Shown here: piece after piece, positions 26,785-37,244 of the stretch
Numbering within the stretch: the first letter of the stretch is position 1
Layout: each line of letters begins with the position of its first letter
Assembly (NCBI RefSeq): GCF_016406145.1
Contig: NZ_CP066306.1
Coordinates: 1,364,001-1,428,000 of the forward strand
Length of the DNA: 64,000 bases
DNA from: Pseudomonas putida
GTDB taxonomy: Bacteria > Pseudomonadota > Gammaproteobacteria > Pseudomonadales > Pseudomonadaceae
Reading direction: 5' to 3'
Notes under the pieces: model-generated
Told to the model about the DNA's origin: nothing
Database searches by the model: none
What the model saw: the letters and a program-made list of their open reading frames with translations, nothing else
Translations under genes and position numbers: made by a program

Positions 26785-26810
26785 GAGTGAGTCTCCATCG
26801 TTTCAATGAT

Positions 26811-26859
26811 GGGGCCGTCCCCGGAGTGGTCACGCAGTGCGTCGTGAGGTCGTCCTCAC
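26811..26859 (-). ncRNA. Guanidine-II (mini-ykkC) riboswitch
   Basis: Read on the minus strand, two short hairpins have ACGR loops: GTGAGG-ACGA-CCTCAC (26859-26844), then GGGG-ACGG-CCCC (26822-26811), separated by 21 bases. That is the defining structure of the mini-ykkC/guanidine-II class. The second hairpin ends 14 bases before the GGAGA ribosome binding site of gdx (about 26793-26797), fitting translational control by guanidine. Confidence 0.9.
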
Positions 26860-26874
26860 CGTGGGCATGATAGT

Positions 26875-28106: not shown

Positions 28107-28182
28107 GGGTGATTAGCTCAGCCGGGAGAGCATCTGCCTTACAAGCAGAGGGTCGGCGGTTCGATCCCGTCATCACCCACCA
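28107..28182 (+). tRNA. tRNA-Val (TAC), copy 1
   Basis: 76 nt. Acceptor strands GGGTGAT and ATCACCC, discriminator A and an encoded CCA end. Anticodon loop CTTACAA gives anticodon TAC between stems TCTGC and GCAGA; the T loop is GGTTCGATCCC. It is co-transcribed with the following tRNA-Asp. Confidence 0.97.
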
Positions 28183-28195
28183 CTCGATGTATAGC

Positions 28196-28272
28196 GCAGC
28201 GGTAGTTCAGTCGGTTAGAATACCGGCCTGTCACGCCGGGGGTCGCGGGTTCGAGTCCCGTCCGCTGCGCCA
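28196..28272 (+). tRNA. tRNA-Asp (GTC), copy 1
   Basis: 77 nt with encoded CCA. Acceptor GCAGCGG/CCGCTGC, anticodon stem CCGGC/GCCGG, loop CTGTCAC, anticodon GTC. It is 13 bases downstream of tRNA-Val. Confidence 0.97.
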
Positions 28273-28316
28273 TATTCCACTTCCAGGGCCCACTGAACAC
28301 CCGGAAGTAACAAAAG

Positions 28317-28341
28317 AAGCGACCTTAGGGTCGCTTTTTTT
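28317..28341 (+). terminator. Intrinsic terminator after the first tRNA unit
   Basis: AAGCGACC-TTAG-GGTCGCTT followed by a T run. Confidence 0.9.
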
Positions 28342-28394
28342 GTTTGTGCTGTTTGAATCTTTTCGATTTTTTTTAAAAAAAACAGCCCAACGAC

Positions 28395-28423
28395 TTGCCA
28401 CGCTTGCGCTTGCTCCGTAGAAT
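28395..28423 (+). promoter_or_regulatory. tRNA promoter, second copy
   Basis: TTGCCA (28395-28400), 17 bp, TAGAAT (28418-28423). The -10 and discriminator match the first promoter, but the spacer sequence differs. The duplicated block therefore starts near the -10 box, and this copy has an independently similar -35. Confidence 0.75.
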
Positions 28424-28443
28424 GCGCGCCTCACCGAGACGAA

Positions 28444-28519
28444 GGGTGATTAGCTCAGCCGGGAGAGCATCTGCCTTACAAGCAGAGGGTCGGCGGTTCG
28501 ATCCCGTCATCACCCACCA
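28444..28519 (+). tRNA. tRNA-Val (TAC), copy 2
   Basis: Identical over its 76 nt to the copy at 28107-28182, including the encoded CCA. Confidence 0.97.
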
Positions 28520-28532
28520 CTCGATGAATAGC

Positions 28533-28609
28533 GCAGCGGTAGTTCAGTCGGTTAGAATACCGGCCTGTCACGCCGGGGGTCGCGGGTTCGAGTCCCGTCC
28601 GCTGCGCCA
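28533..28609 (+). tRNA. tRNA-Asp (GTC), copy 2
   Basis: Identical over its 77 nt to the copy at 28196-28272; same 13-base spacing after tRNA-Val. Confidence 0.97.
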
Positions 28610-29656: not shown

Positions 29657-29672
29657 TGGCCCAACAATTGCT
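29657..29672 (+). promoter_or_regulatory. Sigma-54 promoter of nasA
   Basis: TGGCCCAACAATTGCT fits the consensus TGGCACN5TTGCW with one mismatch. GG and GC have the exact -24/-12 spacing, which places the transcript start near 29683. NtrC-dependent expression under nitrogen limitation is expected (inference). Confidence 0.8.
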
Positions 29673-29688
29673 GAAAGACCTCCATCAA

Positions 29689-29779
29689 GGCCGTCAACGT
29701 CGACCGCCTTCAACCCTTCACGACAAAGGCGCCGTGTTGCCCTCGCTTGCCAAGCAAGCCGGGGCAGCCGGCGCCTTTT
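29689..29779 (+). promoter_or_regulatory. ANTAR-type antitermination leader of nasA
   Basis: Hairpin 1: GGCCGTC/GACCGCC arms (29689-29708, one C-C mismatch) with hexaloop AACGTC. Hairpin 2: CACGAC/GCCGTG arms (29719-29736, one A-C mismatch) with hexaloop AAAGGC. Both loops have A at position 1 and G at position 4, the signature of RNAs bound by ANTAR proteins such as NasT/NasR. The 5' arm of a following terminator (29725-29734 pairing with 29769-29778, then TTTT) overlaps hairpin 2, so stabilising hairpin 2 would prevent termination. The terminator stem is interrupted by inner hairpins and its T run is short. Confidence 0.75.
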
Positions 29780-32800: not shown

Positions 32801-33578
32801 CAGCCTGCAGGCTGAGGACCTGCGGCACCTGTTGCAGCCTGAACGCAAGGCCGCACTGCAGGACTGGCTGTGGGGCCGGCAGTTGGTTGACGTTCTGCGC
32901 GCGTTCCCACAGGACCTTCCGCTGGCAACCTGGCTCGACCTGCTCAAACCCTTGCAACCGCGGCTGTACTCGATCAGCTCAAGCCCATTGGCCCACCCTG
33001 GCCAGGTGCATTTGACCGTCTCTACCGTGCGTTATGGCCAGCGAAAAGGGGTGTGCTCAAGCTTCCTCGCTGACCGGGGGCAGGCTGTAAAGGTGGCGAT
33101 CTTCCCCCAGGCCTCCAGGCATTTCCGCCTGCCTGATGACGATGATGTACCGCTGATCATGATTGGCCCCGGTACAGGCATCGCACCGTTTCGTGCGTTC
33201 CTCGAAGAGCGTGAAGCGCGGGGTGCAAAAGGGGAAAACTGGCTGTTCTTCGGCGAGCAATATGCAGCCACCGACTTTTACTACCAGGAGCAGTTGCAGG
33301 CCTGGCAAGCGAGCGGACACCTGCGCCTGGATACAGCGTTTTCCCGCGACCAGGCAGAAAAAATCTATGTGCAGCAGCGGATGCGTGAGCAGGGCGCGCA
33401 GGTGTGGCAGTGGCTGGAGGCGGGGGCGTACTTCTATGTCTGTGGTGATGCTCAGCGCATGGCCAAGGATGTGGATGCGGTGCTGCGCGAGATTATTGCC
33501 GAGCATGGGGGCGTGGATGCCGATGCGTATGTGCAGGCGTTGAGCAAGGCCAAGCGTTATCGGCGCGACGTTTACTGA
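29805..33578 (+). CDS. nasA: Assimilatory nitrate reductase fused to a CysJ-like flavin reductase
   Basis: A 1257-residue cytoplasmic fusion. An N-terminal [4Fe-4S] site (Cys10, Cys13, Cys17, Cys45) and a molybdopterin-guanine-dinucleotide oxidoreductase domain run to about residue 720. A flavodoxin domain ([14 protein letters not shown]) starts near residue 738. An FAD domain follows from about 900 ([14 protein letters not shown]), with a NAD(P)H site [16 protein letters not shown] near 1117 and a C-terminal RYRRDVY like CysJ. Electrons could thus run from NADPH through FAD, FMN and FeS to Mo in a single chain, replacing a separate electron-transfer subunit. AGGAG precedes ATG 29805. It belongs with nirBD downstream. 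Confidence 0.93.
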
Positions 33579-33630
33579 AGTGCTCCAGGATGGGGAGCAA
33601 TGCACCTTGAATGTGCATGGTTTGGGCTGG

Positions 33631-33720
33631 CCCTATCGCCGGCAAGCCGGCTCCTGCAAGGGCTCCGCTGCTCTCGATCCCTGTGCTGCACCTGTGGGAG
33701 CCGGCTTGCCGGCGATAGGG
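33631..33720. repeat. REP pair, GCCGGCAAGCC family
   Basis: Arms of 24 bp (33631-33654 and 33697-33720) are perfectly complementary around a 42-base centre. Related to the element at 10298-10381. It lies between nasA and the nirB promoter and may end or stabilise the nasA transcript. Confidence 0.85.
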
Positions 33721-33739
33721 CCGGAACAGGCAACATAAC

Positions 33740-33755
33740 TGGCACATTCCGTGCT
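33740..33755 (+). promoter_or_regulatory. Sigma-54 promoter of nirB
   Basis: TGGCACATTCCGTGCT has a perfect -24 element (TGGCAC) and TGC at the -12 position with correct spacing. Predicted transcript start is near 33766, about 15 bases before the first leader hairpin. Confidence 0.8.
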
Positions 33756-33780
33756 TTATCTCCAACACAACAAGCCCCAC

Positions 33781-33864
33781 TGATCAACGGCGATCAACCG
33801 GGGGCACACCGTGATGAATACAGGCAAAGGCGCCTGGAGCTTCGGCTCCAGGCGCTTTTTTTTT
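33781..33864 (+). promoter_or_regulatory. ANTAR-type antitermination leader and terminator of nirB
   Basis: Hairpin 1: TGATC-AACGGC-GATCA (33781-33796). Hairpin 2: CAGGC-AAAGGC-GCCTG (33821-33836). Both hexaloops have the A1/G4 pattern, and the stems are perfect. A strong terminator follows: GCGCCTGGAGC-TTCG-GCTCCAGGCGC (33830-33855) plus nine T. Its 5' arm shares bases 33830-33836 with hairpin 2, so the two structures are mutually exclusive. This is the layout of NasT/NasR-type nitrate-controlled antitermination. Confidence 0.88.
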
Positions 33865-33880
33865 GATCGAGGATCGGCTT

Positions 33881-36433
33881 ATGAAGGCAACAGCGAGCAG
33901 CGGGCAACGAGAGCGACTGGTCATCGTCGGCAACGGCATGGTGGGCCACCATTGCGTCGAGCAACTGGTCGAGCGCGGCGCGCTGGCGCGCTTTGAGCTG
34001 CGCGTGTTCGGCGAGGAGCGCCAGCGCGCCTACGACCGCGTGCACCTGTCTGAATACTTCAGCGGCAGCTGTGCCGAAACCCTGGCCCTGTGCGAGCAGG
34101 GTTTCTATGGCGCCAACGGGGTGCACCTGCACCTGGGTGAAGCGGTGCTGCAAATCGACCGCGAGCGCTGTGAGGTGGTTACCGCCGAAGGCCGCTACGG
34201 GTATGACCATCTGATCCTGGCCACCGGCTCCTACCCCTTCGTGCCCCCGATCGAGGGTTCCAGCGGCAACGCGCGACTGGTCTATCGCAACCTCGATGAC
34301 CTCGACGCCATACGCGCCGCTGCCGTTGATGCCACCCGCGGAGTAGTGGTTGGCGGCGGTCTGCTGGGCCTTGAGGCGGCCAATGCCCTCAAGTCCCTGG
34401 GCCTTCAAGCGCACGTGGTGGAGTTCGCCCCACGGCTGATGCCGGTGCAGCTGGATGCTGAAGGCGGCGCCGCGCTCAAGGCGCAGATCGAAGCCCTGGG
34501 TGTAGGCGTGCATCTGTCACGAGCCACCCAGTCGATCAGCGATGGTGAGGCCTACCGTTACCGGATGAATTTCGACGGTGGCGAACACCTGGAAACCGAC
34601 CTGGTCGTGTTCTCTGCCGGCATCCGCCCGCAGGACGCCCTGGGCCGTGCCTGCGGCCTGGAGATCGCCGCGCGCGGTGGCGTGGTGATCGACAATCACT
34701 GCCGCTCCAGCGACCCACGCATCTTCGCTATCGGTGAATGCGCCTCGTGGAACGGCAGCGTGTTCGGCCTGGTTGCTCCGGGCTACAGCATGGCGCGCAA
34801 CCTGGCGGCGCTGTTGTTGGGCGAGGCGGCCGGGGAATTCACCGGGGCCGACATGTCGACCAAGCTCAAGCTGCTGGGCGTCGATGTCGGCTCCATCGGC
34901 GACGCCCATGGCGCCACGCCCGGCTCGCGCAGCTACCGCTTCATCGACGAGGCCAACGCCGCCTATCGCCGGCTGGTGGTCGATGCCAGCGGCAAGCACG
35001 TGCTCGGTGCGGTGCTGGTGGGCGACAACAGCTACTACGACACACTGCTGCAATACGCCCAGAACGGCATCGCCCTGCCTGCCGACCCGGCGGCGCTGAT
35101 CTTGCCGCAAGGCGGTGGCGCACCGGCCCTGGGCGCCGATGCGCTGCCTGACAGCGCGACCATCTGCTCGTGCCACAACGTCAGCAAGGGCGCAGTGTGC
35201 GCAGCGATCGACAGTGGTTGCGCCGACCTTGCCGCGGTCAAAGGCTGCACCAAGGCGGCCACCGGCTGTGGTGGCTGCGCGGCGCTGCTCAAGCAAGTGT
35301 TCGAGCATGAACTCACCGCCCGTGGCGTGACCGTGGACAAGAGCCTGTGCGAGCACTTCGCCTACACCCGCCAGGAGCTTTACGGGCTGGTGCGGGTGGG
35401 GGGCATACGCACCTTCAACGATTTGCTGGCGCGCCATGGCAAGGGCCATGTCGGCTGCGACATCTGCAAGCCGGCGGTGGGCAACATCCTCGCTTCGTGC
35501 TGGAACCAGCCGATCATGGACCCAGCGCTGGTGCCGCTGCAGGACACCAACGACACCTTCATGGCCAACATGCAGAAAAACGGTACCTACTCGGTGGTGC
35601 CGCGCATTCCCGGCGGTGAAATCACCCCGGACAAACTGATCGTGATCGGCCAGGTGGCCAAGAAGTACGATCTTTACACCAAGATCACCGGCGGCCAGCG
35701 CATCGACCTGTTCGGCGCCCAGTTGCACGAGCTGCCGCTGATCTGGGGCGAGCTGATCGAGGCCGGCTTCGAGACTGGCCACGCGTACGGCAAATCGACC
35801 CGCACGGTGAAGTCCTGCGTAGGCAGCACCTGGTGCCGCTACGGTGTGCAGGACAGCGTAGCCATGGCGCTGCGCCTGGAGGATCGCTACAAGGGCCTGC
35901 GCAGCCCGCACAAGCTCAAGTTCGCGGTCTCTGGCTGCACCCGCGAATGTGCCGAGGCGCAAAGCAAGGACATCGGCGTGATCGCCACCGACAAAGGCTG
36001 GAACCTCTACGTCTGTGGCAATGGCGGCATGCGCCCACGGCATGCCGAACTGTTCGCCACCGATCTGGACGATGAGACCCTGGTGCGCCTGATCGACCGC
36101 GTGCTGATGTTCTACATCCGCACCGCCGACAAGTTGCAGCGCACGTCGGTATGGCGCGAAAGCCTGGACGGCGGCCTGGACTACCTCAAGCAGGTGATCC
36201 TCGACGACAGCCTGGGCCTGGCTGCCGAGCTGGAAGCGCAGATGCAGCATGTGGTCGAGCAGTACGAATGCGAATGGGCCAACGCCCTCAACGACCCGGA
36301 AAAGCTCAAGCGCTTCCGTACGTTCGTCAACGATCGACGCGCCGACCCGGACGTGCACTTCGTCCGCGAGCGTGAACAGCGTCGCCCCGCTGCACCCCTG
36401 CACCTGATCCCTACCATTGAGGAGGCTGTGTGA
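33881..36433 (+). CDS. nirB: Assimilatory nitrite reductase [NAD(P)H], large subunit
   Basis: An 850-residue cytoplasmic enzyme that reduces nitrite to ammonium with six electrons. Order: FAD/NAD(P) disulphide-reductase-like domain (VIVGNGMVGHHCVEQL, VFSAGIRPQDALG), BFD-like [2Fe-2S] segment (TICSCHNVSKGAVC, TKAATGCGGCAALL), and the sirohaem/[4Fe-4S] region with CVGSTWCRYG and SGCTRECAEAQSKDIGVI. ATG 33881 with GAGGAT upstream lies just after the leader terminator. It overlaps nirD by one base. Confidence 0.96.
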   Translation: MKATASSGQRERLVIVGNGMVGHHCVEQLVERGALARFELRVFGEERQRAYDRVHLSEYFSGSCAETLALCEQGFYGANGVHLHLGEAVLQIDRERCEVVTAEGRYGYDHLILATGSYPFVPPIEGSSGNARLVYRNLDDLDAIRAAAVDATRGVVVGGGLLGLEAANALKSLGLQAHVVEFAPRLMPVQLDAEGGAALKAQIEALGVGVHLSRATQSISDGEAYRYRMNFDGGEHLETDLVVFSAGIRPQDALGRACGLEIAARGGVVIDNHCRSSDPRIFAIGECASWNGSVFGLVAPGYSMARNLAALLLGEAAGEFTGADMSTKLKLLGVDVGSIGDAHGATPGSRSYRFIDEANAAYRRLVVDASGKHVLGAVLVGDNSYYDTLLQYAQNGIALPADPAALILPQGGGAPALGADALPDSATICSCHNVSKGAVCAAIDSGCADLAAVKGCTKAATGCGGCAALLKQVFEHELTARGVTVDKSLCEHFAYTRQELYGLVRVGGIRTFNDLLARHGKGHVGCDICKPAVGNILASCWNQPIMDPALVPLQDTNDTFMANMQKNGTYSVVPRIPGGEITPDKLIVIGQVAKKYDLYTKITGGQRIDLFGAQLHELPLIWGELIEAGFETGHAYGKSTRTVKSCVGSTWCRYGVQDSVAMALRLEDRYKGLRSPHKLKFAVSGCTRECAEAQSKDIGVIATDKGWNLYVCGNGGMRPRHAELFATDLDDETLVRLIDRVLMFYIRTADKLQRTSVWRESLDGGLDYLKQVILDDSLGLAAELEAQMQHVVEQYECEWANALNDPEKLKRFRTFVNDRRADPDVHFVREREQRRPAAPLHLIPTIEEAV

Positions 36434-36795
36434 TGAACCTGTCCAATGCTGCTGTGGCAAAGCAACCCAACTGGCAAGCGGTCTGCAACACCGATGACCT
36501 GGTCGCCGACTCTGGTGTGGTGGTGTGGCTCGATGGCACCCAGGTCGCCTTGTTCTACCTGCCTGGGCAGGTGCAGAGCCTGTACGCGGTCGACAACCGC
36601 GACCCACGCTCTGGAGCCAACATCATTGGCCGCGGGCTGGTGGGCAGCCTGCAAGGCGAGCTGGTGGTGGCAGCACCGCTGTACAAACAGCACTTCAGCC
36701 TGCACAGCGGTGCGTGCCTGGAAGATCCGGGCCAGCAGTTACGTGTCTGGCCGGTACGAATGAGCGGGGATGCTGTGGAAGTGGCAGTGGCCTGA
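36433..36795 (+). CDS. nirD: Nitrite reductase small subunit
   Basis: A 120-residue Rieske-like fold protein that partners NirB. Features are WQAVCNTDDLVADSGVVVWL and YAVDNRDPRSGANIIGRGLVG; as in other NirD proteins, the Rieske cysteine and histidine cluster ligands are absent. The start ATG shares its A with the nirB stop (TGATG), and GGAGG lies 8 bases upstream, so translation is likely coupled. A GTG one codon earlier is also possible. Confidence 0.94.
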   Translation: MNLSNAAVAKQPNWQAVCNTDDLVADSGVVVWLDGTQVALFYLPGQVQSLYAVDNRDPRSGANIIGRGLVGSLQGELVVAAPLYKQHFSLHSGACLEDPGQQLRVWPVRMSGDAVEVAVA

Positions 36796-37244
36796 TCCCG
36801 GCTCTTACCTGTCTCTTGCGCTTGCTCTTGCTTTGCTTTTGCTTTTGCTTCTAAGCGCGCGATAGCTCAGGCGCCGCCGATTGCGACTTCAGGAGGCCGA
36901 GCGCAGGTCTTGCGGAGGGAGGTGACGGGCATGGATGCCCGTCAAGCGCTGCGGCCCATGGATGGGCCGTCAGCGCGGTCCTCCCGGGAGCAAGGCCGGA
37001 GCGAGGGAACCCCGGAGCGCAGCGTAGGGGCCGGATGATGGGAGCCGACGGTTTTGGTTACTTTGGCCACGACCAAAGTAACCCGCCGTAATGGCGGAAA
37101 GGTGAATCAGCGCCTCCATGGCGAATGGATATTCACCCGATCTGAAAGCCGCAAGCCGCAAGCCGCAAGCCGCAAGCTGCCAGCAGCAGCCGCCAGCAGC
37201 GCGACCCGGATACGCCACAGGTGGCGATGCGGTAAGCTTGGCGC
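36796..37244. repeat. Gene-free region with a multi-hairpin intergenic element
   Basis: A pyrimidine-rich stretch of TTGCTT units (36815-36852) is followed by four inverted repeats: GACGGGCAT-GG-ATGCCCGTC (36924-36943), GGCCCAT-GG-ATGGGCC with outer GCGCTG/CAGCGC arms (36946-36976), GGTTACTTTGG-N6-CCAAAGTAACC (37056-37083) and CGCC-N5-GGCG. It ends with four GCCGCAA heptads (about 37147-37180). The first two hairpins share the CATGGATG centre. It looks like a dispersed Pseudomonas intergenic repeat; no gene is supported. Confidence 0.65.

Follow-up and report, generated by a model that had tools for sequence, protein, structure and literature searches.

The window, by which we mean the whole 64,000-nt stretch of Pseudomonas putida DNA that was analysed, carries nasA, which encodes a fusion of nitrate reductase with a CysJ-like reductase and ends at 33578, with nirB and nirD downstream (Table 1). 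Its NirB is 98% identical to that of P. putida HAI-2, the nearest named genome. The gap between nasA and nirB holds a sigma54-type promoter and a structured leader, and nasA has a leader of its own. Elsewhere in the window, a tRNA gene pair and its flanks occur in two tandem copies 337 bases apart (28107-28606), a Guanidine-II riboswitch lies on the minus strand at 26810-26861 (43.2 bits), and a partial match to the TwoAYGGAY RNA model is found shortly 3′ of nirD (36921-36980, 46.8 bits).

Table 1. Features of the nasA-nirBD locus, in coordinates of the window
Feature	Position	Strand	Details and basis
Companion nasA leader (Rfam RF03032)	29658..29735	+	48.3 bits, above the gathering score of 43.2
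NtrC-like enhancer TGCACCTTGAATGTGCA	33601..33617	+	One mismatch to the assumed consensus
sigma54-type promoter TGGCACATTCCGTGC	33740..33754	+	GG 33741-33742, GC 33753-33754; pattern and conservation
Predicted transcript start	33766	+	Placed from the -12 element
Basal helix GCCCC/GGGGC around hairpin 1	33774..33805	+	Folding; equivalent in relatives
Antiterminator hairpin 1, TGATC-AACGGC-GATCA	33781..33796	+	Hexaloop AACGGC; sequence read base by base
Antiterminator hairpin 2, CAGGC-AAAGGC-GCCTG	33821..33836	+	Hexaloop AAAGGC; sequence and alignments of relatives
Intrinsic terminator, extended	33826..33859	+	11-bp core GCGCCTGGAGC-TTCG-GCTCCAGGCGC at 33830-33855, TTCG loop, T9 at 33856-33864; folding
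nirB, nitrite reductase large subunit	33881..36433	+	TIGR02374, 1062 bits
nirD, nitrite reductase small subunit	36433..36795	+	Rieske_2, 121 bits

The original prediction described positions 33740 to 33864 as a textbook dual-hexaloop antiterminator leader, with two perfectly stemmed hairpins followed by an 11-bp, TTCG-capped terminator and nine Ts. Base for base, both hairpins read as described, and each loop carries A1 and G4 (adenosine at loop position 1, guanosine at position 4), as in relatives. Hairpin 2 overlaps the 5′ arm of the terminator, with which it shares the predicted seven bases, 33830-33836 (GCGCCTG), so that the two structures exclude each other. Pairing of an A-tract with the T-run, including one G-U pair, lengthens the terminator to 15 bp and absorbs the whole loop and 3′ arm of hairpin 2; the T-run ends 16 nt 5′ of the nirB ATG. 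The span holds as a leader from the transcript start to the T-run, but positions 33740-33765 are promoter DNA and probably untranscribed. Similarly, the structure, the loop rule and a NasT-type protein in the genome speak for an ANTAR-type dual-hexaloop antiterminator, but the 24-nt linker between the hairpins and the basal helix are not textbook.

Taken on its own, the terminator is predicted to have a stability of -28.2 kcal/mol, against -7.0 kcal/mol for hairpin 2, and when the transcript is folded step by step as it lengthens, hairpin 2 has fully formed at 33836 and is gone by 33852. Because the terminator is far more stable and displaces hairpin 2, termination would be the default, and hairpin 2 would need something holding it. 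The stretch 33740-33875 folds better than all 200 of its shuffles (z-score -5.85). A strict scan asked for a pair of A1/G4 hexaloop hairpins, each with a stem of 4 bp or more, and for overlap of the second with a terminator. On both strands of the window it found the nirB leader and no other site, and 20 random windows from a first-order Markov model gave no match. The same scan also misses the genuine nasA leader, whose stems are mismatched, and the nasT-transporter leader (L002, L003), and its silence is therefore weak evidence.

To place this leader among its relatives, we listed, from 149 Pseudomonas genomes, 89 nirB homologues that are nearly full-length and have 77% identity or more, together with their upstream DNA; two partial NirB rows of one genome (G094) and all NirB rows of a second lineage were dropped. 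All 89 leaders combine a sigma54-like element (two mismatches allowed in the promoter search), the hairpin 2 core and an overlapping terminator, the count for hairpin 2 not being independent in that its search pattern has A1 and G4 nearly built in. Hairpin 1, with an A1/G4 hexaloop on a stem of at least 3 bp, is present in 87, four of which have 3 bp only; the other two (L064, L065) keep hairpin 2 and the terminator and have no recognisable hairpin 1. Since it is missing from two leaders and reduced to 3 bp in four, hairpin 1 may not always be needed.

An independent test of the loop rule came from counting hexaloop hairpins of at least 5 bp between the transcript start and hairpin 2, with the loop left free. 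Hairpins with A1/G4 loops numbered 87, in 75 leaders, as against 1.5 in shuffles (maximum 5 in 50 shuffles), and those with other loops numbered 19, as against 18; these shuffles, like those for the basal helix, the NtrC-like site and the third hairpin below, ignore the relatedness of the genomes. We also aligned the leaders in two groups. Alignments A1 and A3 contain 23 of the 24 leaders L040-L063 (L063 being left out), and A2 and A4 contain 47 and 49, respectively, of the 65 leaders L064-L069 and L080-L138. Left out of both A2 and A4 were L064-L069, L081, L082, L084, L085, L090, L097, L098, L100, L112 and L130, and out of A2 additionally L093 and L134; several of these have no clear hairpin 1, an omission that favours invariance in A2 and A4. 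In the loop of hairpin 1, positions 1, 2 and 4 are invariant and positions 3 and 5 variable in both alignments. The loop of hairpin 2 shows the same pattern in A2 and is fixed throughout in A1. As far as the aligned sequences go, conservation follows the ANTAR loop rule, in which A1 and G4 are kept and other positions vary; hexaloops with A1 and G4 are how passages of PMC3369931 state it.

Upstream of the leader, GG-N10-GC at -24/-12 is accompanied by an NtrC-like site. The sigma54-type promoter places the transcript start probably near 33766, 15 nt 5′ of hairpin 1. Both patterns were matched to what we take to be the sigma54 and NtrC consensus sequences. Sigma54-type sites with at most one mismatch occur ten times on the two strands of the window, so the pattern alone is not rare, and the evidence lies in position and conservation. 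The best NtrC-like site of nasA has three mismatches, versus one at nirB. Among the 89 homologous upstream regions, 26 have an NtrC-like site with up to two mismatches (1.65 in shuffles) and 63 have one with up to three (18 in shuffles), leaving 26 regions with none. In a P. putida rpoN mutant, nirB and nirD are described as still rising on nitrogen limitation, less than in the wild type (a table of PMC7801951), so that sigma54 is not certain to be the sole route to nirB expression and others may exist.

A large imperfect REP-like palindrome (33628-33722) lies between the NtrC-like site and the sigma54-type promoter, and could alter enhancer spacing. Weak Rfam matches to mir-4874, isrG and mir-92 on this palindrome, and to Thr_leader on the nirB leader, were taken as chance or composition.

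The genome has a single ANTAR-domain match, a protein that also contains a receiver domain and whose gene adjoins an NMT1-like (NasS-type) gene and an MFS transporter gene. The gap between the ANTAR and transporter genes holds an RF03032 match of 74.5 bits, the transporter's own leader. Of the 149 Pseudomonas genomes, 132 have both ANTAR and NirB, 15 have neither and 2 (G051, G133) have just one of them, a concordance of 147/149 that is partly a proxy, as an ANTAR domain need not be NasT. RF03032 matches 131 of these genomes, 125 over the cut-off. Four genomes have ANTAR and no RF03032 match (G001, G018, G051, G147), and two have a match and no ANTAR hit (G003, E 0.007; G086, E 4e-8). In G086 neither an ANTAR protein nor NirB was detected, and its match is possibly a relic or belongs to another regulator. 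Of 229 genomes of the class, 73 have an ANTAR protein overall, against 10 of the 11 in which RF03032 matches at E 0.001; G249 is the exception, and three of the 11 are over the cut-off.

The nasA leader has the same hairpin 2 loop, AAAGGC, as had been predicted, on a stem with an A-C mismatch, and its hairpin 1 has a C-C mismatch. Its RF03032 match starts at the GG of nasA's own sigma54-type promoter. A covariance model made with 23 leaders, including that of the window, scores the window site at 80.1 bits and the nasA leader second (16.6 bits, E 0.042), with nothing else convincing in the same genome (next matches E 1.1 and worse). Further RF03032 matches in this genome (L004-L009, 16-24 bits) showed no dual hexaloop plus terminator by the strict scan, itself blind to L002 and L003.

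Linkers divide the leaders with hairpin 1. They measure 20-27 nt in the 24 leaders L040-L063; among the other 63, they measure 38-77 nt in 58 and 20-31 nt in five. For the eut RNAs of Enterococcus faecalis, natural linkers of 5-12 nt and failure at 14 nt are described (passages of PMC3369931), and a range of 2-25 nt has been used for ANTAR targets (passages of PMC8164766); the 24-nt linker in the window lies within this range, yet is longer than the 14 nt described as failing in E. faecalis. A second, basal helix carries hairpin 1 and shortens the gap to hairpin 2. Such a helix is predicted in 76 of the 87 leaders, whereas 200 shuffles averaged 45.9 and reached at most 57, and the arms of the helix differ yet match (GCCC/GGGC, GTCC/GGAC, CTCCG/CGGAG, ACCTGG/CCAGGT). 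RNAalifold returned three basal pairs in the short-linker group; one of them changes on both sides, and in 4 of the 23 leaders one is broken. For the long-linker group it returned hairpin 1, a middle hairpin of three pairs and hairpin 2, with no basal helix and no pair changed on both sides. Because the shuffle mean is high and the covariation slight, conservation of the basal helix is suggestive rather than proven.

Many leaders also have a third hairpin, GGC-N6-GYC, just 5′ of hairpin 2. Among the 59 leaders in which hairpin 2 is preceded by 80 nt or more, 38 have it; shuffled segments averaged 1.8 and gave 5 at most. Position 1 of its loop is a purine in all 38 (A in 21), and G4 is present in 37; the nirB leader of the window has no third hexaloop. 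Together with the basal helix, this hairpin may reconcile the long linkers with the E. faecalis limit. As a Paracoccus NasT oligomer is described as broadly consistent with a hexamer (passages of PMC3795266), we regard binding of more than two loops by NasT as conceivable.

Taking the locus as a whole, the nirBD leader is very probably a NasT/ANTAR antiterminator within a two-input switch, for which we infer NasT binding, the start site and the nitrate response. Under nitrogen limitation, phosphorylated NtrC would activate the sigma54-type promoter, and transcription would begin near 33766. If the second input works as in relatives, NasS would hold NasT when nitrate and nitrite are absent; the RNA would then pass through both hairpins, the terminator would displace hairpin 2, and transcription would stop in the T-run, yielding an RNA some 95 nt long. 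When nitrate or nitrite is present, freed NasT would grip the A1/G4 hexaloops of both hairpins, and hairpin 2, held in this way, would keep the 5′ arm of the terminator, letting polymerase continue into nirB and nirD. Such a switch would confirm, for a strain of the P. putida group, that nitrite reductase is made only under nitrogen shortage with nitrate available.

Could the terminator instead serve nasA alone, without antitermination of nirB? Transcripts reading through the end of nasA would meet it too, but a promoter-like site separates nasA from the hairpin, and the same leader precedes nirB in all 89 homologues. These include genomes such as G004, where the next upstream RF03032 leader points the opposite way, so that no upstream transcript is expected to end at the nirB-leader terminator; we consider this explanation very improbable. 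Attenuation by a translated leader peptide appears more improbable still. A frame starting at GTG 33811 or ATG 33814 does run through the terminator and stays open for 61 codons, but it passes the nirB start in another frame and stops at 33994-33996, with no end inside the leader. Moreover, the ATG is missing from many homologous leaders (among them L055, L057 and the A2 group with AAAAGAACAGGC), in which the hexaloops stay.

The transcript might also act mainly in trans, as a small RNA like the described P11 of P. aeruginosa, its leader role being secondary. The window leader has a weak similarity to P11 (RF00625): a short search scored it at 31.1 bits, where the gathering score is 70. Passages of PMC12080996 describe P11 as an sRNA that regulates the nitrogen assimilation operon of PA14; they also report that inherited avoidance of P. 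aeruginosa by Caenorhabditis elegans requires P11 and that P11 suffices for it. The elements in the window are nevertheless those of a cis antiterminator, with the T-run 16 nt from the nirB ATG, and P11 itself lies at most 400 nt 5′ of a second-lineage NirB gene at 27 of its 30 best-scoring places; we judge a mainly trans-acting role unlikely. The preferred reading remains the antiterminator leader, and if P11 is such a leader, its level would report nitrogen and nitrate status.

P11 and narK both bear on this reading. At E 0.1, the P11 model has matches in 102 of the 149 Pseudomonas genomes, and in 82 of them the score passes the cut-off; this search used stricter filters than the short one, and the window's genome gave no P11 match in it. 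At two of the 30 best places (G005, G066) the gene that follows is shorter and encodes a NirB-like flavoprotein with the domains Pyr_redox_2 and Rubredoxin_C; the remaining place outside the 27 is in G041. A middle A1/G4 hexaloop hairpin is present in all 29 rows listed from these 30 loci, 26 of which have all three hairpins by the strict scan. The two NirB lineages are about 36% identical; high-scoring P11 leaders precede the second, to which we infer that P. aeruginosa NirB belongs, and the window's NirB is in the other. Leaders of this kind stand before genes of two NirB lineages and, in G005 and G066, before a flavoprotein gene, and different genes seem to share the leader as a module. Against the narK model (RF03032), the window nirB leader scores 15.3 bits, below the gathering score of 43.2. 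That model probably contains untranscribed promoter DNA, since the nasA-leader match begins at the sigma54-type GG. Within the genus-wide picture that our comparison gives, the sequences of the P11 and narK entries make them look like leaders of the same kind as the nirB leader, with the promoter inside the model.

A broader proposal, which we hold to be possible but somewhat doubtful, is that Pseudomonas nirB leaders form an unrecognised class of multi-loop ANTAR RNA. Such a class would be marked by a third purine-1/G4 loop in many members and a conserved basal helix, and three loops could be held by NasT oligomers bigger than a dimer; the window's leader would be the minimal two-loop form, and P11 and narK would be reclassified as NasT antiterminators, the sigma54 promoter at the start of their models being an error. 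Possibly new are the third hexaloop in many leaders, the placing of hairpin 1 on a basal helix, and P11 and narK as the same kind of leader. Within one open library, outside which the key Pseudomonas papers lie, we found no publication reporting the third hexaloop or equating the Rfam narK family with ANTAR targets. Still, passages of PMC6759348 predict NasT-type hairpins in the narK leader of Bradyrhizobium, which puts a link between narK leaders and NasT already in print.

NasT control of the nirBD leader is itself already known and not new: both P. aeruginosa and P. putida are described as having it, and the window comes from the P. putida group. Romeo et al. in 2012 and Nie et al. in 2024 reportedly placed the nirBD leader RNA, NalA, under NasT in Pseudomonas, one of them in P. 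putida. As summarised in passages of a 2026 review (PMC12830290), which cites P. aeruginosa (2012) and P. putida (2024) work for nirBD control, transcription stops in NalA without NasT and NasT binding opens the leader; NasS holds NasT when nitrate is absent, and the nirBD promoter depends on sigma54 and NtrC. The same NasT/NalA account is given for P. aeruginosa nirBD in passages of PMC8092218.

Among known systems, the leader in the window resembles NalA in its gene, the NasS-NasT pair, the sigma54/NtrC promoter and the leader terminator, a likeness drawn from citing passages rather than from base-by-base comparison with the published P. putida leader. With the ANTAR dual-hexaloop RNAs targeted by EutV, NasR and AmiR, as described in passages of PMC3369931 and PMC8164766, it shares two short stems, A1/G4 hexaloops and a hairpin 2 that overlaps the terminator; it differs from them in its 24-nt linker and in the basal helix under hairpin 1. 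Like the window's leader, P11 has a sigma54-type promoter, hexaloops AACG.. and AAAGGC, a terminator and, usually, a position directly 5′ of nirB, but it adds the middle A1/G4 hexaloop hairpin, and the window's leader falls below its gathering line. The narK family shares the sigma54-type GG..GC and the dual hexaloop, with the nasA leader and the gap between nasT and the transporter above its cut-off; unlike the nirB leader, it has a shorter linker, 7 nt in L070.
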